Of a stretch of 64,000 nucleotides of DNA, positions 10,101-44,854 are shown piece after piece. The notes under the pieces are model-generated. The model ran no database searches, was not told the origin of the DNA, and worked only from the letters and a program-made list of their open reading frames with translations. This stretch comes from Mugil cephalus. Taxonomy: Eukaryota; Chordata; Actinopteri; Mugiliformes; Mugilidae. Position 1 is the first letter of the stretch. Each line of letters starts with the position of its first letter. A program made the position numbers and the translations under genes. Location of the stretch: contig NC_061772.1 of assembly GCF_022458985.1 (NCBI RefSeq), forward strand, positions 8,732,001 to 8,796,000. Direction: 5' to 3'.

Positions 10101-13100
10101 TTCCATAAAATAATAGCTTTTCATACATCGTTTCCATAGAAAGAGCGTAATATATGAATTAATGTGAATATTTTAGAGCAAATATACACAATGATACACA
10201 TGTGTAGTATAAGGAGGGATTATATGTGCCTGTCATACCTGGTATAGTGCCATAAAGCAATATCTAAACACAACTCTGGTCTGTTACTCTTAACCAATAT
10301 GTATAGGCTATGAATATATCCTTGAAAGTTTCTGTTCAGTCCTGCAACTAGACTTTCTCTGCATAAACAAGTGCAAAACACTCAAGAAAAGAAAACAACT
10401 CGGTAAATATCTTATAAGCAATGAAACGATTCAACATTTTCACTATATCTCAAGGATGTACTCTGTGCAGTCTGCTGAGTAACAACCTGATGACCTTTAA
10501 TCATCATGAAGTGCTGTAAAGTGACCTCTGACGGTCCAGACAGTCCGTACTTCTCAGGGATTTCACACTGTGACAAAAATGGATAACCGTAAATTCTCTA
10601 GGTCTCACCTCAGAACGTCATCGCTGGTCAGATTTTTCTTCTTATTGAAGAGCGTCCGAAGCACATGGCGCCCCCTTATACCATCCAGACTGCTGTTTCC
10701 TAGCAACTCCACCAAAGGAGCGAGCTAACGGAGACAGAAGATTTAAGGTTGAAACGAGCTAAAACAAAAGTCACTAGTGACAAACTAAAGCTGCAGTGTA
10801 ACAGAAGGTGCCATGGTAAGGCTGGAGTTTGATGGCCTGATTTTAACTGACTTCAAGTTTGTGCTGTGAACATCATTTTATGTTATTATTGTGCAGAGGC
10901 ATATGTTCCATCCTCTCATTTATTTAGTCTTTCCTCTCAATTTAAACCACATCTGAGATCTGTGACAGAGATGAAGCAGTTATGGGAAGAGCTGTAAATC
11001 AGTGTAAATCAAACCTGTTGCGATGTCAGCTGCTGAAAATGACTGATTGGGAGGTAAGGCAGAAGAGGGAGGATGGAACTGAGAAAGTACGGTGGCCATG
11101 TGGGGACATCACCCACCACACTTGACTGCAGGAGTCTTTTTACAAAGGCCTTTTTCTGGGGCGATTTCATCCCAGAGCTGTGGTCACGAATGGCTGTCAA
11201 CCTGCAGAGGAGCAGTGCAGAAACCGTTAGCATCAGAGGAGAGAGGAATTTTGCATTAAACATGATCATTTGTTGGGTACGTGACTCACACACTGTCATT
11301 GACAATCAGGGAAGCTGGGAAGCTCATTATGTCAGAGACAGACATGAAGGGAATGAACTGAGAAAGGTCTACAAACAGCTCTGGGGTCACTCGGGGGAAC
11401 TTATGGATGAAAGCAGCTGTCATTGTTTCCATGGCCTGCAACTCTTTTTGAGAGGCCTGCCAGAGAAAACAAAACAACAGGACATGAATGGATGTGTGTT
11501 CTACTTGGCCCTCTTTAACTATGCATGGGCCGTGACATGCATACAAAAAAATTTGATACAACACAATGCCGTATAGTAAACACCAATCAGAAATACATCA
11601 CAGAAAGCACAACACAATCCCCCGATCCCTTTGTGATATATTACCCTGTCAGAAGCTTCATTAAAAAGAGTGTCACAAATATAAAGCAAATGCGGTGTTT
11701 TGAAAGAAGCTGATGAACAAACCTGGCTGGTTTCAACCTGAAGCTGGTCCCAACTTTGATGCATATGAGAGATAAATCTCTTCACTGCATCTTTTTCAGC
11801 AGACATCACAAGAGTACGAATGCTGTCTCTTGGCATCTGGAGGTACTCCTGGTGAGATAAAGTGAATCACTTTAATCTAATGTTCAGCGAGCGAATCTGT
11901 TGTGAAATGTTAAACGTGAGCATGGCTGCACAGGCCATTACCTGCAGCAGAACCCTGAGAGCAGATGAGTTGTCATCCTGCTGGATGAGGTCCCACAGGA
12001 CAGGCTGGTGTATCAGCAGAAACAAATTATTCACTCATTGTGTGTGCAAGAGAGAGACATATTGCATGTGCGTACCACTTTACTACTGTATCTTACACTA
12101 AAGCAGCTCAGCAAGTCTTCCTTTAGAGTTGTATTCTCCTCTCTGCGCAGGAAGACTCCCACAGTGTGAAGGACACTGGTGGAGGCCTCTGGCTGCAATG
12201 AGGCCCAGGATGTGTTGTCAAGGAGACTGGAGAGAAGGATGGCCTGACCCAGGCCTTGTCTCGCCTCTCTTTCTCCTTCATCCAAGCCTGAAGAGAGACC
12301 CACCATGAAGTCCAAGACTCGCAACACATACCCCAGCGCCACTAAAAACCATTCACGGTCTCCTCCCTCAACCTCACACACACTCAGCTTATGCAGGACA
12401 TCCACCAGCAGAGGAGCTGGGTCCACACACAACTGGGATGTGTCAAACTCATATGGTGCTGGGAGCATGTCAAAAAACCTCTGCAGGAAGCATTTCCTAC
12501 TTTCCTGCTCTGCCTGCAGATCAGCACAGACATCCTCTAACAGCGGCTTCAGTTTTAACAGCTGGTGGTAGAGTGTGGCATTTAGACAAATGTACTCTCT
12601 CAGTCCATGTGTGTGTCCACAGAGCTCCAGGAGGGTGGAGTTGGTGAAATGATGCACAGTCCAATTCCTGTAGTGACAAGTGTCACCATGGGAGTAGTTT
12701 TGTATCTTGGAGCAGTATGCTGCAGCCCAGCTGCCCTCTTGCAAAGGCTGTTGTGAGTCAGGGGAGTCTCTGCCACACAGAGCTGACATCAAGACTGAGT
12801 TGTTGGGCAGAAAGCAGTCTCTGAAAGCCTGGGCACTGAGTGACCTGCTACCTAACTGAGTCAGACACTCGTCATTCAGTCCTGGACTCTCGATCGACTC
12901 GACTGAAAGCTGCACACAGAGGTCATCTATATTTGTGTGGTTGAAAAAATTATAGTCTTTTGTCAATGCCGCCTGCAAATTATAAGAGAGAAAACAGTAA
13001 CCATGTGTTCAATGGGAATTGTGTTCAACAAACAAATAGCAATGTATAGAATTCTTTTAAATACAGCATTTAGCGTCTTCAGTGTTGCTAGCTATACCAG

Positions 13101-29315: not shown

Positions 29316-31279
29316 ATAATGTTGCTAGTGATGAACTTAAAAGCATTTTTTTGGTGGCTCTTGTTTTTTTTGTTTTTGTTGTTGTTTGAAAAATAAATAC
29401 TTTCCTTAGATTCAAAAGTTTAGTAGTGTGTTGTTTACTTATTATGAAGGAATAAAATGATGAGGTTTCCCCATCAAATAACACTCAGTAATTTTTAATG
29501 AAAAAAGTGGAAACATGTTTTAGAAACCTATAACCAAAGTATTGTTGAGTTCTCTTGAACACAGAAAACGTGAAAATCAGAGCCTGTCGCACACTCCTAC
29601 AATTACAAGGGCTCACATCCCATGGTGCTGATGTCTACCTCCTACATTAGATATTGTTTTATGATGATGATGTGTTGGGGGGAAAGTGATGGGGGTATCT
29701 TCAGGGTGAGCAAATTTGGTTGAATGCTGCTTGAACACACACGGTACCTACCCCTATCAGCAAATCTTTCTGAAATACAAGTGAAAGTACCGCATGTGAT
29801 CGGTGGTGATGCAGTGTCCCCCCTCCAAAACAAGCTCTTGGATCCCTTTCTAGATATGTCACAATTAATGAATGAACAATGGAAAATATATTTTATTATA
29901 GTTTTGTGGGTTGTTGCCAAACCATGGAAAACATACTGTTTACCAAGCGTTGTGATTACAGCTACTTAGTTTTACAACTCTTCTCGTTTCATCAATACTC
30001 AACAAGCAGACCTACAGCTGCCATCGTTTCAGAGCCACGCAGGTGACTGATAACACGTTTGGCATCTTGGTGGCACGTGTAGAATCACTGACTGGCTTGT
30101 GAAAGCTTGTATTGTTCTTCACGATTACCAGGCCTACACTTACGAACCAAAGACAACTATCCCTCCCAGTTTAGCTGACAGATGTTACAGGCTTGGCTCA
30201 GTGGCTGGGACACAAACCTTTTGAAGCCTTTAAATCCACCACACCTCTCAAGGTGCAGTTCTAACAGTTAGTAATGACATCATGTCCTTTGCATGTCATT
30301 GCAGAGCAATGTAGCATGCCATAGTAAAGTTAACCAGTGAAATCTGCCATACAGTAAACAGACTAAAAAATTATGTGTAACTGCTTCAATAAATGTCTCC
30401 TGCACTAAATTCCCTCTTATGACTTTATTCACTTTATATTGAAACTGCACCAGAAAGGTAGTCATTCAATTGTATGATCACACTGAGACCATACTACTGT
30501 AGTTTGTTTTGCTGTTAAACTGGATTGAATAAAACAGTCTTACTAAAACATAGTTATCAGAATAGTTAGGGTGACCAGACGTTCTCTTTTTGAGACCTAA
30601 AAATGTATCAAACTCAAACTTTGAAACCATTTCAAACTTGTCTCTCTCAGCGGACAAGGAAACACCACTTAAGTACATCTGCTTAATGCTATTTCTGGGG
30701 AAAAATGATTACACTCTTTATTTTATTTTACCAGATAACATTTATTTATTTTTTTTTATTTAATTAATCTAACCTTATTTTATCTTTCTATTTATTCGTG
30801 GTTTTCAGTCAAAACAAAACGATTCGAAAATCTCGGCGATGTAAACGCAGATGGAAATGCGATAGCGGAAATACGCTCCCACCAAGCGAACGAGCCCAGC
30901 TGGGTTGACCTATGGGGTTGACCCTACAGTCAGTCAGTGGGTTGACCGCGTCGTCAAAGGGACACGGGGATATAAATTACGCGGAATTCTGTCAAAATAT
31001 TTGAAATGCACAATCATACAGTCAATGTACACACGGCCTTGCAAAAAACAAGGCAGTTTAAAATAGATTTTACCGTTTTATATGTACGGTGGTCCGGGAG
31101 GTTTAAATACGGTTCGCGTTTTGTGGGAGTGGTCCTTTCAAGCCGCCGTAGCAGTGATAAACATTGACAAGCAGCTGTTCCTTCAGTATTATGTTTCAGA
31201 GCTACCACGTGTAAGACTTTACTGCATGTAGCGTAACAAAGCGTTGGAGAAGAAACCAACTCGTGTCACCAGTAGCCAA

Positions 31280-34200
31280 ATGGAACCTGTCATAAAAATA
31301 AATCCCGGTAGGTTAAATGTTCGAGACGTTTGTTTCGTCGTTGGATGCGAATGTCGACTCGTCATTGTTACGATGTTGTGCCTGTTAGCATCAATGTAGC
31401 TTCATTTGTCCTGTCTTGACATTTGTCTCACAGTTTGTTCCGTTTACTTTGCAGGAGCGTCGAAATGGGACATTCGTCAAAAAGTTTGGGATTACATTGA
31501 GGAAAACAATCTGGCCAACTTTCCAAGGCCTGTTCATAACAGAATCCCCAATTTCAAGGCAAGTTAAAGGAGCTCTTTGAAAAAGTGGTGTTCAAGATCA
31601 ACACTTGTGACTTAAATGAGTACGGTACATCTCAGCTGAAATATGTCACTCCTTTAAAGCCTACTATGTTGCAAAAAATTTAATAAGGCTTTGAACGTTG
31701 TTTTTCAGTCATTTGGGCATCAATTATCAGTCAAAAACTAGTCCACAACGTAACACGCTATGAAATTAGAATAACTCCTTTTATCTAGAGCCTTTCTAGT
31801 TAGACAAAGTCTGGTGATTCATATTTGTCTTCTATGCTATATAAATCATTTTCCAGGTCATTATTCTTTGTAGAATACAATAATTTTTCCTAATGTAAAT
31901 GAATCCCGCAGTTGCAGTCTGCATTAACTTGACTGAGATGGCCACTTACAACCTTATTCAAGTTACCGTGTATGTTCCTTAAGTCACAGAAATAAATTCA
32001 TATGTTGAATAAGTGTGCATATATTTTTTTATAGGTATGATCATTAATTAATCCAGGGCACAGATTTGCACAGCAGCTTTAGGCTGGTGTTCCTGAAGTC
32101 TGAATAATTAATGCATGTCCTGTCTGTACATGCGTTTCTTGTCATGTGTACTTATTGGCCAGGGTGCAATTCAAGCGTGCAACAGACTTGCAGAGCTGCA
32201 GGAGTTCAAGTCCAGCCAGACAGTCAAAGTAAACCCAGACAAACCCCAGCAGCAGGCACGCATTGTCACACTGGAAGTAAGTTGCCCTAATAATACTTAT
32301 TATGACATGCCCTCCTTTCCTCTTTAGGGTGCTTTTGTGGCCTGTACCAAGGTGTCGGAGATGCAGGTATTCACCCAGACAGCTGAGGTGAAGGTGGATC
32401 CTGATAAACCTCTGGAGGGTGCTCGATTGGCAGTGCTACAGGTAGCGCTGTTCTGTGGAGCATATGCACCAAGCATCTCTAGCTGTATTATAGCAACTTC
32501 TGTCCTCTCCATTGCCTCGGGTGACCACAGCAGTTTGGCTTTAATGTGGTTATTAAAATGAAAAATTACAATGCCTCCACTAGTCTCCAGAACTCACAAA
32601 ATAAGATACATCATGTGATTCACTTCATAAAGTGATATGTCAGGCATCGTGTTTTGCATTTTCTGAATCGACATAGTTGTTATTTTTGCCATCACTGATA
32701 GTACTTAATATTTAATAATACTTAATTCACTTCAGCATTAACCTTAAATAACTGTTGTCTTTCGGCAAAATTTTTACAGGCTCGGAAAACTTTATTGGTT
32801 CCAACTCCTCGTCTCCGCACTGGTCTCTTCAATAAGATTACTCCTCCCCAAGGGGCCAGCAAAGAACAGCTACGTGTATGCTCTTCTTCTCAGGTTCGAA
32901 TCTGTACATTTTTACACATTTTCACAAACATTTTCTCCTACAATTTCATTCAGTAAACCCCAACAACTTTGATTAGTAACCTCTAGCACCTAAACTTTGT
33001 CAGGGTGTGAAGGACTTCAGTGTGCCTGTTTCCCTGGATGCAAAAGTGAAGGTAGACCTGGTGGTGGTTGGCTCTGTGGCGGTGTCAGAGAAAGGTGAGT
33101 GTCATCTGACAACGATGCACGACACTATTCGCTTTAATATAGGCCACTCAACTAAGATATAATAAGACAATCCTTTACCCATCCCATAGTGGGGACATTG
33201 GTAGCGTTTAAGGACTGCATAATACAAGGAAAAGCAAAACATTAAATTATTACAAAAATTAGAAATTAAATAAAAGAGTAGTTATGTGTGTGGTCTACTG
33301 GCAGCAGGCTTGGTTACAGCCTCACAGCAGCAGGAAGGAAGGACCTGTAGAAACACTCCTTCACACAGCAGGGGTGCAGCAGTCTGCTGCTGAAGGAGCT
33401 GCCCGGTGCTGTTATAGCACCATGAAGGGTTTTTCATCAGGGATGGCAGCTTTGCTTCCATACGGTCAAGAGTCAGCCCAGAACAGAGGGACCTAGTTTG
33501 AACATGATGCTGCATTTATTATAGCCACTTAATGGTATTTTACAGTTGGGGTGTATTAACCATGAGTTCAAGCCAAAGCTTTGATACGGACAGTAAATTA
33601 TAAAATGGCGGTTGTAGCTGGTGTTGTTCCTAATTAGACATGATTTATTATTTATGAATGTAATGAGTATCATATTGTCCAGGAGCCGTGACTCTGTAAA
33701 AACAATTAACGCGCTGAACCAACTCTAACCAAACCATACACCATAAGGGTTGCATATTACAACATTCAGAATGGGTGAAATTTGCTTAATCAGATCAGTT
33801 TTGCTCAGTTTCTGCTTTCTTCACTTACAAGTCGTTTTGATCCTCTTTTTAAAAATGTGTATCAGTGTGAGAGAAGTGATGCAGTGTCGTGGTGAGTGCG
33901 TAGCTTTCTGCGCTGGTATTGAAATAGTCTCTTCTTTGCACTATGTTTCCGAACGTAGCACAAATATTATTGTATTTCGATTCATATTAAGTGAATCTGC
34001 TTTTTGGAGAATATGTCTCCCTTAAGATTAGATATGTCACCTATTGAAAAATTCATATTAAAATTCTCTCATGGTATCTGTCTCCTCCTGTAGGCTTTCG
34101 GATTGGAAAAGGAGAGGGCTTTGCTGATATGGAGTATGGCATGATGGCTTGTATGGGTGCTGTGAATGAGTCCACTGTGGTTGTTACTGTCGTCCATGAC

Positions 34201-37200
34201 TGTCAGGTTAGTCTGCTTATTTGAAGTTTTCGAACAAACCAAATGTCTTATGGAACCTCAAAACCTACATCAATAATCAAATGCAGAGGCAGTAAACGGA
34301 AGACGCTTCAGAAGAGAGATTCTCTCACTTTGATGCGAGAAAAATGACATTTTAGAAGTTGTTAAGCATTTTTTTTCTGTCTTTATTCCTAAACTTAGAT
34401 CAGTTGCTGTTTCTGCATTAACTGGAATATTTGTATTTTCAGATAGTGGACATTCCAGAGGAGCTAATGGGAACTCATGATCTGACTGTAGACTACATCC
34501 TCACCCCCACCACAGTTATTAAAACAAACTGCCAGTTACCTAAGCCGCACGGAATCATCTGGACTAAGGTACATTTAAATAACACTGTAAAATACATGTG
34601 TAAGTTGACAAGCAGAATTATCATAAAGAAATAATATTCCCTAAGATACATATAAAAGTAGTGTTAGTTAAAATAAACTGGAAAAGTCCATCTAAAGGAG
34701 GGAATAGGTAGACAGGTAGGTAGGTAGGTAGGTAGGTAGGTAGGTAGGTACATAGATAGGTCCATTAATGAAGACACTGTCTCACACACATCTTTGCTTT
34801 TCAATTGTTAAATAATCATCTTTCAAAAATATTAAACCTTTTTTGCACTTAAGAGTCTTTGTAAAGTATGGGAGTAATATCCACATGTGAACAAGGTGGA
34901 CCTCAGCCATGGAGTACATACATTTATTTATTTATTTTTAAAGAGTGCAGGTAAATCTGATTTGTTCCTCAAATTATCACCAACCTATCACCAGACATCA
35001 TCAACCTATTTGCTTGGGTTGCTGCGGTGTCTGCGTGGCTCTTTCCAAAGGGAGAAAGGGGGAAAAGCACACATTCCTGATTTGTTTCTCCTGATGGTGC
35101 ACCATTTTTTGTAGAATTCTATTTTAATTACATATCCAACCACATCCAATAGCAGTTTGGAGCTGATTTACAATTTTTTTTTCCTTTAGTCTTTATATCA
35201 ATCTGGAGTTTGTCTGAGTTTGCCAAAAACAGATTTGGATTATGTGTCTGAACAAGGCTTTTTGACTCCTTTGGGACAGTGTTGGCTGCTTGACAAGGAA
35301 AACACAATGAAAACTGAGGAAGCCTCCCCCTTTTATTTTTTTTAGTATTGTTCACTCACAGCTCACCCAATAGGCTGCTTAGTTATAATAAATAACAAAG
35401 CAACAAACGGGGCCAAATTTTTCTAACATTGTCAATAAAATGCCATAAATGTGTCAATTTTTTTTCTTATGAGCTGAAATAAATTATCTGTAAGAGCAGC
35501 CAGGTGTCTGCAAAAATCTTTTTTGCATTAAGAGGATTTTGATTGAGGTGTCTTTCAGTGATGTGACTTGAAATATACTTAGTTTTTCACATCAGTTTTT
35601 AATAATTTGTGATGATTCAGGTTAATCATCAGGAAGTATATTGAAACGACCCTCAGCTTCCTTAGGTTAGGCCTTAGCTGTGTTCATCAAGAAAATGTGG
35701 TCAGATGACCTCGTTCTAAATAAATGAATCATTTTACATTTAAAAAATATATGTTGTTAGAATTTGTCTGATGAAATATTTACATTTGCCATCTTCTAAA
35801 GCTAAGCTCAACATTTTTAACCTTTGTCTCCCCCTTCTGGCTGTGACAGTAATTACGCAAACAATGTGTGGAAAGTCCCAGGCTTGTGTTCAGAAATGGT
35901 TACAAAAATACTGAGAAATTTCCAGAGTGTCAAGGCCATACTATACAAATACCAACCTGTCCAAGAATACAAAGAAGACATCCACACATGCCTTCAGTCC
36001 CTTCTCTCTTTCAGATGTCCAGCTCAGAAAAAACACACTCATGTGGCATACGCTGACAATCATTTATATGTAGAAGTCTCGCTGTCCAGATTTAAATTTG
36101 CAAAACTGGTGGATGAACAACAATATGGACATAATGCACATTATATAATTCTAAAAGTCATGTAACAAAAATATGTTTAACATTGGACTAAAATTCACAT
36201 TCACCATGTTAATCATTTAATTGTTCATAGTTCAACTTCAAGATTTATTGCATAAAAAATAGCAAAATTAAAAAAAAAAGTAGCAGTCCCCTTTCAAAGA
36301 TAAATATTGTTACTGTCACAGTGGTATGACTTACTGGACTGACTGACTAGAACAGAACCATCAAAAATTATTAGTAATACCTGTGTGTTACCAGCAGTTA
36401 AATAATGTCTTGTGAAAATTCTTTTAAAAAAATGATCCTTCAGTTTATTTATTTATTTTAAAAGTATATGATAATTTCTGGCATTTTGAGATACATTAAC
36501 GTTGTATAAAAGTAAAAGTGGAATAACTTAAACAAACGTGACTATGAAGACCATACAGTTTTGTTTCTTTTTGTCTGTATCCTTTTGCCTAGATCCGTAC
36601 TTCTTATCTTGTCCTTTGAGCCACCTGTCCTGTACAATGTCTGATCTCATTACCTGTTTGTTGTCATGGGTTCAGATGTAAACGTAGAGAGCAGGCTTGT
36701 AGATAAATGCTCTGTTTGGGCACATGGCAAAACGTTTAGCCCTTCTCCCCATGTGATACTGCCGTCTAGTTGGCTTACAGTGAAACTACATCTCACTGGT
36801 GTTCAGAATCCATAATAGTTCTATGTGAACTATAATATATTGAAATTGTATATTTTCACAACATTACTCTTTTGTGATATTTGCTTTTTTAATGTGCAGT
36901 CATATAGGTTTAGTCCTTATAATTTGTATATTGGATGCATGTCCATTTTAACAGTAGTCTACCCATTCTTACTATTTAACATGTTGTTGAGATTGTTGTT
37001 CCTGGTCATCTCGTGGTTATATTTAAACCAGGGTCTGGCCCTTAACGTGCCTCTGATTTAATGACATTGGCAGAGAGCTATCGTGTTTTTCCTCCTGATA
37101 ATTTTTTTCTTTAATTAGACATGATGGGGGGTATTATTCTTATTATGTGGTGAGTTTGTGTGTAACCTCTGGGTTCCTTAAGACACGCATGTAAGTAAAC

Positions 37201-37525
37201 AGGACCCAGTGAACTCACAGACAGGAAGGCCGTGTCTGATCATCAAAGGCTCCTCTGCCCAGACACCTTGGCTCTGCAGGGGCAGGGGAACGGCGGGTCA
37301 AACAGGCCAGTGTAAAAACAATAGGCCCGTATATCCTTTACAGGACTGGTCAGCATCAAAGGCTGCCAAGGCACTTGAAGACCCAACAAATCAAGAAAGC
37401 AGTCTTTATTTTTAACTGCTTGGGAAGTGACATTGGATGTTGCTATAAAGATTGTTATTAAGCATGAACTGCGAGCAGGATGGAATAATAACAATTAATT
37501 GGCTCTGACAGGGGCGTGTGTGTGC

Positions 37526-37556
<31 letters not shown>

Positions 37557-38349
37557 CCCCTTTGTCATTCAGCCTTACTGAACATATCCATTTTTGTGTC
37601 TCCAGCTGGACACAGAGAAGTTGGAGAAGATCCCTATCCTGAAGAAGCTGCGTGCTCTGGAGGAACAGGCTGGAAAGGATGTGACACTGGGGGCTGCGCC
37701 TGCCCCAGCTGATCCTGATCTGCAAACCGGTCGACCAAAACGGCAAACCCGACAGAGGCCGAGGCAAGACACACAGCAGGACGCAGAGGGAGAGTCCAGA
37801 CATGAGAAAAGAGTGGAGGCAAAACAGAGAGCCAGGCAGCAGCAGCCAGCTAGAGTGAGGAAGGAAAGCCGAGGAGAAGGTAGAGGACTTAACGAGGGAG
37901 AAATCAGCAAGACGTTTAAGGGGAGGGGTAGAGGGAGCATGAGAGAGCAAGGCCCAGAGGAAGGTGGACGTGAGGTGACATCTCAGCGTAAGCTCCCACT
38001 GAGTGTGACCACAGTTTACCTGGGGGGGATCCCGGCCGGGCTGCGCGTTAGTGAGCTGAAAACCGCCCTTAGAGAGAGGGAGGCTGCTCCACTGAGGCTC
38101 ACCTGGCAGGGAGCTCAACACAGGGCCTTCCTGGACTACAGTGACCCTCAGGCTGCAGATCAGGCCCTGGAGGCTCTGCAGGGTCTCTGTCTCAACGGTC
38201 ACGACCTGCAGGCTGAACTGGCCAAGAGCCAGCGGGGAGGCAAGAGGTCTGGACAGTCCAGCAGGAGACCAAGACCATCAGCGGCTCCGAAGGCTAAGGC
38301 CGAACCACTGGATACGAAGAGCGACACTGCTGATAAGACTGAGCAGTAA
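31280..38349 (+). CDS. mthfsd: methenyltetrahydrofolate synthetase domain-containing protein
   Basis: Protein with an N-terminal 5-formyltetrahydrofolate cyclo-ligase-like fold and a C-terminal RRM; enzymatic activity is not established in the family and RNA binding is likely. Exons: 31280-31307, 31455-31558, 32163-32276, 32328-32441, 32780-32893, 33004-33094, 34094-34206, 34443-34568, 37606-38349. Phases all fit: 515 aa if both 114-nt exons are used, 477 aa with one (human 383). Key blocks are [83 protein letters not shown] and [20 protein letters not shown]. The RRM lies at about residues 363-440 in the 477-aa form ([12 protein letters not shown] and [16 protein letters not shown]). Between the domains is a charged Arg/Gln/Glu-rich linker of about 110 residues, longer than in human and likely disordered. 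Exon 2 uses a GC donor. The gene is convergent with foxf1, as in human. Confidence 0.95.
31559..31564 (+). other. GC-type 5' splice site, mthfsd intron 2
   Basis: AAG|GCAAGT: the strict consensus context of GC-AG introns, right where the reading frame (IPNFK) must join the next exon (GA). No usable GT is nearby in frame. Confidence 0.85.
32163..32276 (+). other. mthfsd: mthfsd duplicated exon A
   Basis: 38 codons, phase 0 at both ends, beginning [15 protein letters not shown] and ending ARIVTLE. It is homologous to the next exon (17 of 38 residues identical, no gap). The VNPDKPQQ version resembles the form I recall in non-vertebrate relatives. Acceptor GGCCAG, donor GAA|GTAAGT. Confidence 0.85.
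32328..32441 (+). other. mthfsd: mthfsd duplicated exon B
   Basis: 38 codons, phase 0, beginning [15 protein letters not shown] and ending GARLAVLQ. This is the copy closest to the human segment ([18 protein letters not shown]). It is separated from exon A by a 51-nt intron (32277-32327) with GTAAGT and TTTCCTCTTTAG ends. Confidence 0.9.
33190..33500 (-). repeat. probable LINE 3' region in mthfsd intron 6
   Basis: Resembles a common teleost LINE 3' segment (GGAAGGACCTG.AGAAACACTCCTTCACACAGC, GTGCAGCAGTCTG, GAAGGAGCTGCCC), with an AT-rich tail on the left that would be the 3' end if the element lies on the minus strand. Assigned from recollection only. Confidence 0.4.
34715..34750. repeat. 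(GGTA)n microsatellite
   Basis: About nine copies of the tetramer in mthfsd intron 8. Confidence 0.9.
37526..37554. repeat. (GT)n microsatellite near mthfsd last acceptor
   Basis: GT run about 50 bp upstream of the last-exon acceptor (37605). Direct observation. Confidence 0.9.
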
Positions 38350-41300
38350 AAGCAATAGTAAATACATGCCACCAACTTTGAATACATAAGGTTTGAGTTT
38401 GTTTTATGACATGGATTCAATAGAGATAGAGGAGCACTTCAGTTACAGGAAACTGATAAAATTTACTTTACAACATGAGAAAATAATTTCATTTCATTTC
38501 ATCACAGCATTGTAAAGCATTTTCCTACTAAGGTATTGTATATACCATTAGGTGAAACGTACACGTACTATATGTGCCTTGATTTATTCACACACCACGG
38601 CCTGGTCCGTGTGTCCCGATGGCCTTTATCTTTTCAAGGTGCTTTTTTTTGAAGGATTCTTATAACTGACTACAGTTGTTTTCTTTTTAAGCCATAGGCA
38701 GTATATAGTTGCGAGAGCCAATTTCGGCCTCTTGTTTTTATTTAATTTACAGAGGCCTTGGTTCAGAGAATTGAGTGGTTAGATTTTGTTTTAGAGGGCG
38801 CCACCATCTGGTGAGTAGCACAACTTGTACTGTCTCAAGAATTTACAGATCTCTCTTTTTATTTTCTTGGTCCAACATGTGAGTTTCTACATGACCACAC
38901 AGATGTTCTGCCATTTCAAATATTTTTTGGAAGACGTTTTTAGAGCCACTCCTACAGGTTTTATCCACTCCTTTTATTTTTAAATCCCATTACCGAGATG
39001 TGTTATGACTGAGGCTATGTGGCCATTTAATATAAAATGTCATAAATCTAGGAAATAGTGTACAGGTTTCAGCCTAACTCACTGGCAATGTTCAAGCCAT
39101 TTTGATTACAGACAACACAAATTTAATGAGTTTAAACAGGCGTAATTTAGTCGTGTTTACTTTAACTCGCACCATTCATCCTTGTACACAGCCAAGCACT
39201 TGCCTGTCCTCAAAAAACATCATTTTCTATCAGTATTTCATTGAAATGCGGTTTACGAACTTTTAAAGCTATTTTCTTGAAGTAGAATGGTTTGTACAGC
39301 CTTAAGCTAAACTCTGTTCCTGAGTATTTTTATTTGCGTTGGAAGAGTGATGTTACCTTTTTTGAGTACGATGTCAAGCTCACTATTAAGAGTTGTATCA
39401 CGTTCATTAGTAACCATACTAAAGCATGTTACTGTACCTTTTCAGTCTTACTGTCTTTTTTTAAAAAAAAAAACAAACAAAAAAAAAAACATTTTGATTT
39501 GCAACATGACGGATCTTGACACTGTTTTTCGTTTTGCAGGATTAAACACATTGCTCTGATTGTAGATGAGACAGCGAAGCCCCTTCAAACCCTTGCTGTA
39601 CTGAAGCAGAGGTACTTTTATGGTCAAAAGTTAAACATGATATTTCAGATCATTGGATGAAATTAGACAAAAAACAAAACAAAAAAAAAATAACGTAGTA
39701 ATGTAATTCAACAGTTTAAGCTATTTTCTTTGAGCAGGTCTTCTCAGATTATTGCTCGCTAAGTAAATTACATTTAGGGAGGGGAACAGTTTCTGTCCGC
39801 ATTAATTCTGGTTTTCAGACAGACAACAGTCACAAGAGGTATTTTAATCTTATTTAAATAAAAATATCCCCAGATACATGTACGACACTTATCTGCTCAG
39901 TAACCTGTATCGTGTACCTCTAATGCTTTGTTCACACCTTTCTGTGTTTCTTCAGCGAAGGTTGTGTCAGATAAGTGTCACTAAAGTCTTGGCTGTGTTG
40001 AGACACCAGCACACAGCATGTCTGTCTACACAGTGCAGGCTTCAGGCTTTTTATGGAGCTGTCATCCAGGCCTGGCCAGGGAACAGCTGTGGAGCTCCGT
40101 CTCTCTCTCCCTCAGCCTCGCCAGAGCTCTGAACCTCGGCAAATGTCATCAGTTTGTTAATGTGCTGTTCTACTGCTGTTGAGCCTGCTAACCCTCCACT
40201 CCATGGCATGCTCATTTTACTGGGTTCAGTCAGTGGTCACGCCGCGAGGCTGCAGAGCAAGTACATCTACGTATAAAGATCCACACACACACACATGTCG
40301 ACAACGAGACTGAAAATAAAATTAAGAGACCTCTTAAATTACATTCCAGTTGCTGTATCTAAATTGCACGAGGTGTGCATCAGAGTAATCTGAGTGAACT
40401 ATGTTGATGCCCAAAAAGTAGAATGTGCCCACCATGTTTTTTTTTTTTTTTTCTACGTGAGGAACACCTGTTGTTTTCATCACCACAGACTAATCTGAAA
40501 CTAGAAGAATTTCCTGAAGGTTATCTTTCCTTTTTAATTTGTACAAATTCAAGGAGCCTGCGAAGACAAGTGTGTGGATGCGTATGATAAAAGAATAGAA
40601 CCAACAAGTTGGAAAATAAGTCCCACTCTGAAATAATTTGTAGGATTTTGACGATGTGATAAGAAATTTAAGAATTCACATATGAACTGTTTGTGTGCAT
40701 TTAGTGTCATTGTGCCTTTGCTGTACACAACGAGGACGCTATTTCTCTGATATTTAACATATAAGGAGAAGTTGCTCTTTTCGCTCTCGGTCTGTAATAC
40801 ACACTTCATTTTTAATTTTTTTATTTTTTATTTTTATTTCGAGTTCTAGTTCTTTTAATTATTATTAAGCCCATTCTTTGTAGAGATTTCCCTGGAATCC
40901 CTGGAGCTACTCATTACACGAGAGTACAGAAGTTCATTTAAATCAGCACCATTTATTGTATTTCCATCAGGCTATTACGCAGAAATATTATTTGGACAAA
41001 ATGCTTTGGAGGAAAACAACTGTACAACTATTTCACAGCAACTGGACTGCTGCAGATTTTCAGCCCGTAACCAAACGCGGGTGAGATCTCTGCAACTGAT
41101 TTGTTACGCCTCAATTGCTGCACACTCTCATTACATAGAAGGCATGTCACGATTTAACATTTTTACCTTTATATTTATTAAATCTAAAGCCACCGATCAT
41201 TGTTTTGTGGAAAATATGATTTCTTCGGTTTACAACATCAAGCATTACCATTTCCTGCGAGGTGAAAATTGGTTAAATCGTTGAAAAGACTGGGGTTTCA

Positions 41301-42726: not shown

Positions 42727-44854
42727 TCACATCACGCAGGGCTTGATGTCCTGGTAGGAGACCTGCTGGTGGTGGTAGTAGGAGCCGCTGCTCGGTGAGT
42801 GCATGGCCGAGGACGCCATGGCGTTGAACGAGAAGACGAACTCCTTTCGGTCACACATGCTGGGAGACTGGGAATGGTACCGAGGAATACCTGCAGCAAG
42901 GCGTTTAAAAAAACATGGATTAAAAACAGCATCTCTAATGTCACAAGTAACATGACTACTTTGATGGCTAGAATTAAAATATGTCCTCCTCGTTTCTAGG
43001 AAGATATAGAAGCTTTACTTAATTAAACAATACAAGTAATACGTACACAAGGTGTCACATTTTCTTGTTAAATTAAAAATATATTTTTTAAATTTATTTT
43101 CCAGATACAGGGCTTCACTATGCATGGGTAAATTCCTCATAGACCTCAAGTCCATTTAGCAAGCACGATTAAGATTGTCAAAAGGGGAGGCGGGCTTGCA
43201 GGGCTAATTGACAGTGGCCCTCTTGCACGCCAGTCCCCGAGGACTGGGAGCCTCAGGGCAAGGCAGGCTGGACCTAACCGCGCTTGTTTTTCTTGCCCAG
43301 AGATTGGCACCACTCTAAACTGTCCCGGCAGACTCTCCCTTCCCTCCCATATCTCTCTCTCTTTTTTTTTCTAAACCACTTCCAGGAGCCGAAACGCGTA
43401 CAAGTTTGAAACTCTTGATTTGTGGATTTTTATTTGGAGTGCCGTATTATATTAAATTAGGAGCAAAAAGGTTGAAGGAACATAATTTCCGTGGGAGAAA
43501 ATGATTTCTTGCGGTTGCATCATTTTTCCTAGGTGACCTTAATTTAAATCTTCCTGTTTTGTACGATACAGACGAGCTTAAATTTATTGACCCCAAAATA
43601 AATCCAGCGTAAATCACCGGAGGCCTATAATGCTGGTTCTTGCTGCTCCGTACTTCCATTAAATTTGTAGGCCACTAGATTTTGAAACATGTAGAAAATA
43701 TTGTCTAAAACGTCTAATAATTAAATGTTCTAAATGTAAATTAAATGTTCTTGTGTCACTTCATCTTTAGTTCTACATACACTGATTATATTTACTTATT
43801 TATTTTATACATATAATCAACCACAGTTTTACTGGACATTTTCCATTCGTGAGATTGGGAATGAAACGGACATACCTTGTAAATCTGTGGTACTGTGCCC
43901 GTTCTGGTGCAGGTATGGCTGGTCTAATGAATGCGTGGGCAAACTTGGCTGCAGCGGGTTCGCTCCTGGATTGCAAGGAGACAGAGGCTGCTGCTTGATG
44001 TAGGATGCCCCGTTATTCAACGAGGCCGAGGGGGCAGGAGCCCACGCCGAGGCTGAGCTCGAGTAGACGGGGTGAGGCTCCATGACTCCCCCGCTAGTGA
44101 GCAGAGGGGAGGCGGAATTGTCGTGGTGGGGGTAATCACTCCCAGTGGATCCTGTACAACTTCCCATGTAGGAATGTCCATTGTTGGTCGACAAGTGTGA
44201 CATGGAGTGTCCGGACAGACCCATCCCATCCATGTTACCTGCCAAGTGTCCATTCATCATCCCAATCCCACTGTCCAGAGACAAACTGTTGGGCGGACAG
44301 GATAGGCCCCCGCCGCTTCCCTGGAAGTTGTAAGACTCGGGGATGTGGTTGAATCCCAGGCCGTTCATCATGCTGTACATGGGCTTCAGCGCCTGGCACT
44401 TGCGCCGGAACCCCCTGGGTCTCCTTCTGAAGGAGCCTTCCTCGAACATAAACTCACTAGCCGGGTCGATAGTCCAGTAGTGGCCCTTCCCTGGTCGACC
44501 GAGGCCTTTGGGCAGCTTAATGAAGCACTCGTTCAGGGACAAGTTGTGACGCACCGAGTTCTTCCATCCCTGATACGAGCCTCTGAAAAACGGGAAGCGG
44601 CTCTGTAGGAACTGGTATATTTCACTGAGGGTCAGGCGCTTGGTCGGAGAGCTCTGGATAGCCATGACTATCAAAGCTATGTATGAGTACGGGGGTTTCT
44701 CTGGTCGTCGGATCCCTGCGTTGGTCTTTTTGGTTTTCGTAGTGGAGGAAGCGGTTTCCATCACCACCGTCTGTCCGTGCGGCTTCTCCTGAGCAGACAT
44801 CGGGCTGCTCTGGGCAGGAGTCTGCGCTGGGGGCTGCTGGACCTCTGCCGTCAT
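42727..44854 (-). CDS. foxf1: forkhead box F1 transcription factor
   Basis: Nuclear forkhead activator of splanchnic and lateral mesoderm, gut and vascular mesenchyme; a known Hedgehog-GLI target. Exons: 44854-43876 and 42890-42727, joined in phase at Q-G; 380 aa (human 379, also two exons). The forkhead domain is at residues about 51-153: [20 protein letters not shown], recognition helix [20 protein letters not shown], and wing [31 protein letters not shown]. The Ser/Gly/Asn-rich middle and the C-terminus, [20 protein letters not shown] and [16 protein letters not shown], match the FOXF1 transactivation tail and distinguish it from foxf2. The start ATG is preceded by non-homologous sequence, and the N-terminus [11 protein letters not shown] is FoxF1-like. 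Convergent with mthfsd. Confidence 0.98.

Follow-up and report, generated by a model that had tools for sequence, protein, structure and literature searches.

In the window, by which we mean the whole stretch of 64,000 nucleotides analysed here (C3:8732001-8796000, in a source genome scanned as 635 Mb in 24 contigs), the mthfsd gene carries two adjacent homologous exons, which we call A and B. We put at roughly 80% the probability that these exons stem from an old tandem duplication and are used as a mutually exclusive pair, a reading drawn from the divergence of the two copies and from the dimensions of the intron between them. Comparison with prokaryotic relatives shows that the copies are not equivalent: A has kept the ancestral type, and B has diverged from it.

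The mthfsd locus and its tandem exons

A gene model built from open frames and splice sites places mthfsd on the + strand of the window, with 9 exons including A and B. The coding part of exon 1 runs from the ATG (31280..31307) and is followed by exon 2 (31455..31558), the donor of which is GC rather than GT: exonic AAG followed by intronic gcaagt, cut after 31558 (window 31556-31564), in a context that is otherwise strong. Exon A (32163..32276) and exon B (32328..32441), of 38 codons each, are separated by a GT-AG intron of 51 nt (32277..32327). The first common exon 3' of the pair, exon 5 (32780..32893), is followed by exon 6 (33004..33094), exon 7 (34094..34206), exon 8 (34443..34568) and the last exon, whose coding part (37606..38349) specifies a C-terminal RRM-like domain. 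The predicted protein has 477 residues with A or B alone and 515 with both, and all four combinations (A, B, A+B, neither) stay in frame. Either form exceeds the PF01812 cut-off of 27 bits, with 96.4 bits for form A and 90.4 bits for form B, and the C-terminus resembles PDB 2e5j, which is entitled methenyltetrahydrofolate synthetase domain containing (MTHFSD), with E 3.3e-18; the RRM_1 match to this region fell below its Pfam cut-off. The bare 38-residue pieces encoded by A and B matched 0 Pfam families. No match at gathering score was found with Rfam between 30000 and 39500, and A and B lie clear of the 3 direct and 2 inverted repeats of at least 24 nt that occur in 31250-38400.

Downstream of mthfsd lies a forkhead open reading frame on the - strand (43829-44854; PF00250, E 5.4e-37), by reading foxf1-like; in human 16q24.1, MTHFSD and FOXF1 adjoin in the same way as the forkhead frame and mthfsd in this fish. 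Elsewhere in the window, a - strand frame at 12031-12978 has a Stereocilin match (PF21058, E 4.9e-10), and the neighbouring frames on the same strand, which gave no Pfam match, may belong to the same gene.

The existence of a tandem pair had been claimed in an earlier note, and recomputation bears this out: the coordinates, the 114 nt of each exon, the 0/0 phase, the 17 of 38 identical residues without a gap and the 51-nt intron were all recovered, and the motifs VNPDKPQQ (A) and VDPDKPLEG (B) are found as described there. The ungapped BLOSUM62 score of A against B is 93. In 20,000 shuffles the mean was -26.5 (sd 12.0) and the maximum 51, which rules out a chance resemblance. In a comparison of A with every 38-residue stretch on the gene's + strand, in all three frames, the best score after that of B was 19. 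Equal exon length is weak evidence of homology, because the unrelated exon 5, which scores -25 against A and -32 against B, is also 114 nt long.

The age of the duplication may be judged from the positions at which the copies agree. At codon positions 1, 2 and 3 they are identical in 24, 25 and 10 of 38 cases, respectively. The first two values exceed the random expectation (binomial tails of 3e-6 and 7e-7 at p = 0.27), and the third is at the random level. By the NG86 method dN is 0.48 and dS has no finite value, the silent sites being saturated, and in this one species both exons are open, without a stop. With silent sites saturated and positions 1 and 2 conserved, the duplication is therefore old and both copies have been retained as protein; on this pattern both are under purifying selection. 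A recent duplication is ruled out by the randomness of third positions and a dead copy by the codon-position pattern as a whole.

We also considered a second mthfsd paralogue as the source of one copy. An exon-by-exon search of the genome, in which 2 candidates were scored, returned 3 matches, all at mthfsd, and no second A/B locus, which sets this candidate aside, with a miss still possible in a search of a kind that can pass over short exons. A search with PF01812, which overlooked mthfsd itself, revealed a second gene of this family on the same contig, about 4.9 Mb from mthfsd (C3:3866552-3867403, - strand); it is probably the true mthfs.

Comparison of the copies with prokaryotic relatives

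Relatives were collected by scanning genome contigs with an alignment (A1) of the fish forms and two added rows, with the scan patterns placed in exon 2 and hence outside A and B. Of the 221 relatives confirmed in this way, the 80 that ranked highest against form A were retained; going by their record titles, 77 are from archaea and 3 from bacteria, and their identity to form A is 37-47%. We take these proteins to belong to COG0212. An earlier scan of genome contigs with a single protein had given 0 relatives from 16 pattern matches, and a scan of viral contigs gave 0 from 53. In all of the best 80 of 221 the unit that corresponds to A and B is single, its spacing is fixed (RIPN-NPD 29, PQ-P[RK][LI] 18) and there is no gap within its 38 columns.

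Every one of these 80 relatives is nearer to A than to B, both by identity and by BLOSUM62, with mean identities of 15.9/38 for A and 10.7/38 for B. A relative-rate count over the 80, which are not independent and were ranked with form A, assigns a mean of 0.9 changes to the A line and 6.1 to the B line; the chi-square exceeds 3.84 for only 40 of them (median 4.04). A second sample was drawn with a profile (A2) that contained neither A nor B, from 198 genomes of one bacterial phylum. Matches came from 80 of the 198, and the 30 best supplied the loci for comparison. One of these (L106) has no such segment, leaving 29 that could be scored, and another (L086) is the gene of L041, hence 28 are new. 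A is nearer than B in 29 of 29.

Where the two copies part company is seen most clearly in the columns that do not vary. Among the 80 relatives kept, 31 alignment columns are invariant; form A agrees at all 31 and form B at 29. The two that form B has lost are N68, which is D in B, and Q73, which is L in B, and both are within exon B. At the 55 columns that are at least 95% conserved, A has the common residue in 47 and B in 45, and the two forms differ from the family at the same 8 others. The family-wide invariance that the first sample (80/80) would suggest for N68 and Q73 is tempered by the second, in which column 68 holds N in 5 of 29 loci and D in 1, and column 73 holds Q in 15 and L in 11. 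Since these columns vary in remoter bacteria, B appears diverged and not necessarily dead. Its changes may have altered rather than abolished function, and B as a dead enzyme is only a possibility on this evidence. In the same bacterial sample, the loop reads PPD instead of NPD at 11 loci (L091-L101), which are possibly a subfamily with a different ligand.

The 51-nucleotide intron and the proposed choice between A and B

It had been argued in the earlier note that the intron between A and B is too short for a normal distance from donor to branch point, and the predicted branch sites agree with this. In a consensus scan, strict yUnAy sites have their branch adenosine 14 and 23 nt from the donor of A, and sites of the looser form nUnAn, with the A of the final AG not counted, come no farther from it than 29 nt. 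Inspection by eye shows no adenosine beyond 31 nt other than that of the closing AG. The steric limit is given as about 50 nt from donor to branch point (PMC7969005, PMC5740500), and it has been credited with the exclusion in 57 of 629 human clusters of mutually exclusive exons (PMC5740500). Since splicing has been reported for human introns as short as 43, 49 and 56 nt, the last of them with ordinary splice and branch sites and leaving as a lariat (PMC4463651), a length of 51 nt would hinder the joining of A to B and would not bar it.

The other features of the splice sites are less informative. A's donor reads GTAAGT and B's acceptor has a pyrimidine fraction of 0.94; the fraction is 0.59 for the acceptor of A and likewise for those of exons 5, 6 and 8. 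Donor scores, from a weight matrix, are 4.3 for A, 0.8 for B, -0.4 for exon 5 and 1.3 for exon 8. By these measures A and B have splice sites of ordinary strength for mthfsd, and no argument is drawn from them. Two familiar mechanisms of exclusion are ruled out: incompatibility of U2 and U12 sites, since there was no U12-type donor among the three checked, and frame-shifting, since each exon, at 114 nt, is a whole number of codons.

From these features we infer that A and B would exclude one another in the mRNA, in the following way. One internal exon of mthfsd would have been duplicated in tandem long ago. Each transcript would now carry either A or B between exon 2 and exon 5, and the two resulting proteins, both of 477 residues, would be the same outside a 38-residue segment. 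An intron of 51 nt would leave little room for U1 on the donor of A and U2 on the branch point of B at one time. The intron is in frame and its last three bases are TAG, so that its retention would confront translation with a stop. The choice of A or B, which the earlier note had proposed, is in our judgement the best explanation, because it would account at once for the purifying selection on both copies, the short intron and the single unit in the 80 relatives.

Human data touch on this choice. A mutually exclusive event in human MTHFSD (MTHFSD-102413-ME, from TCGA SpliceSeq) appears in Table 1 of PMC7443856, where the exons are unnamed, and it is plausible that this event is the A/B pair. 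A second human study has MTHFSD among its skipped-exon genes, again with the exons unnamed (PMC8116631). The exon-skip category, together with the fact that all four combinations keep the frame, is what one would expect if A-only, B-only, A+B and skipped forms were made as a regulated mixture that is not strictly exclusive. Skipping both copies would drop a unit that is present in all 80 relatives kept, and we regard such a mixture as unlikely; it overlaps the preferred explanation, and our confidences do not total one. It is considerably less likely that both exons are constitutive, the 51-nt intron being removed in the manner of ultra-short introns to yield a tandem 38-residue repeat in a protein of 515 residues. 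The frame would be kept, the intron has a GTAAGT donor and a very pyrimidine-rich acceptor, and the short human introns just mentioned set a precedent. Against this, the predicted branch sites are all within 29 nt of the donor, the intron is not G-rich, whereas 12 of 22 conserved human ultra-short introns are (PMC4463651), and with one unit at fixed spacing in 80 of 80 relatives a second unit would be unlikely to be tolerated in the fold. The least probable alternative, that only one copy serves the protein while the other, as a relic or a poison exon, is skipped or acts to lower the amount of message, draws on the TAG met upon intron retention and on the GC donor ahead of the pair, but A and B alike have an open reading frame that fits the rest of the gene, neither brings a stop, and their identity by codon position is not what would be expected of a long-dead copy.

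Exclusion by spacing has a known precedent in alpha-tropomyosin, where mutually exclusive exons are held apart by a short distance from donor to branch point. Exons 4a and 4b of human OGDH are likewise adjacent and homologous, provide two versions of one segment, and are separated by an intron whose branch points, at 25-41 nt from the donor, fall within the limit of about 50 nt (PMC7969005). Unlike in OGDH, the entire mthfsd intron is 51 nt, so that no distant branch point is needed, and its branch points are predicted by consensus only. In their being adjacent, homologous and products of an old duplication, A and B also resemble the 236 human tandem duplicated exon substitution events, of which more than 90% are reported to have teleost counterparts (PMC9741552), and the human mutually exclusive clusters (PMC5740500). 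MTHFSD is absent from the main texts of these two papers and from those of PMC7969005, PMC4465641 and PMC7954323, and it may be present in the supplementary lists of PMC9741552 or PMC5740500. A literature search, confined to main texts, disclosed among the papers listed none that was recognised as describing the mthfsd pair. The two exons are a genuine old tandem homologous pair of a well-known kind, most probably mutually exclusive. What is unusual in mthfsd is the contrast between an ancestral-looking copy and an altered one.

The protein family and a possible splice switch

A profile match to the solved 5-FCL sequences 2jcb and 1ydm spans most of the 38-residue unit, and this alignment makes it plausible that the unit is substrate-facing. 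We assume that it comprises the first helix, the first strand and the next loop of the cyclo-ligase-like (COG0212-type) domain, and that it lies near a folate-contacting glutamate of MTHFS. Both fish forms have the PF01812 domain in common with the 5-FCL-like proteins of the COG0212/MTHFSD group, such as plant At1g76730. The vertebrate protein differs from the plant one by its C-terminal RRM and, in this fish, by having one exon in two versions. The plant COG0212 protein has been described as lacking 5-FCL activity and has been linked to thiamine salvage (PMC3223725), and in 2014 the biochemical function of COG0212 was given as unknown (PMC4120688). Fish MTHFSD has been credited with the recycling of 5-formyl-THF (PMC7918649), an ascription probably made by name. 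Human MTHFSD is described as an RNA-binding, stress-granule protein that is altered in ALS (PMC5773659).

The unequal evolution of the two copies raises a further idea, which is possible although doubtful: splicing may toggle MTHFSD between a form with a ligand-competent COG0212 domain (A, VNPDxPQ) and a derived form with lost or changed activity (B, VDPDxPL). Form A, which has the VNPDxPQ motif of the family, would presumably retain the ancestral ligand-binding behaviour, and form B would presumably bind something differently or less well. If this were so, an enzyme and an RNA-binding pseudo-enzyme would come from one gene. The corresponding segment of canonical human MTHFSD appears to be B-type, with 23 of 38 residues identical to B and 15 of 38 to A, which serves as a lead. 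On this view the mammalian form that has been studied best would be the derived version, and it is with form A that one would have to look for the activity still missing from the orphan family.

As a whole, the interest of the mthfsd pair lies in the unequal evolution of its copies and in the handle that this provides on what an orphan enzyme family does. If the two splice forms differ at a pair of residues that never vary among the nearest prokaryotic relatives, assays of a single form may have missed the chemistry of the family, and the A/B pair makes this idea directly testable, form against form.
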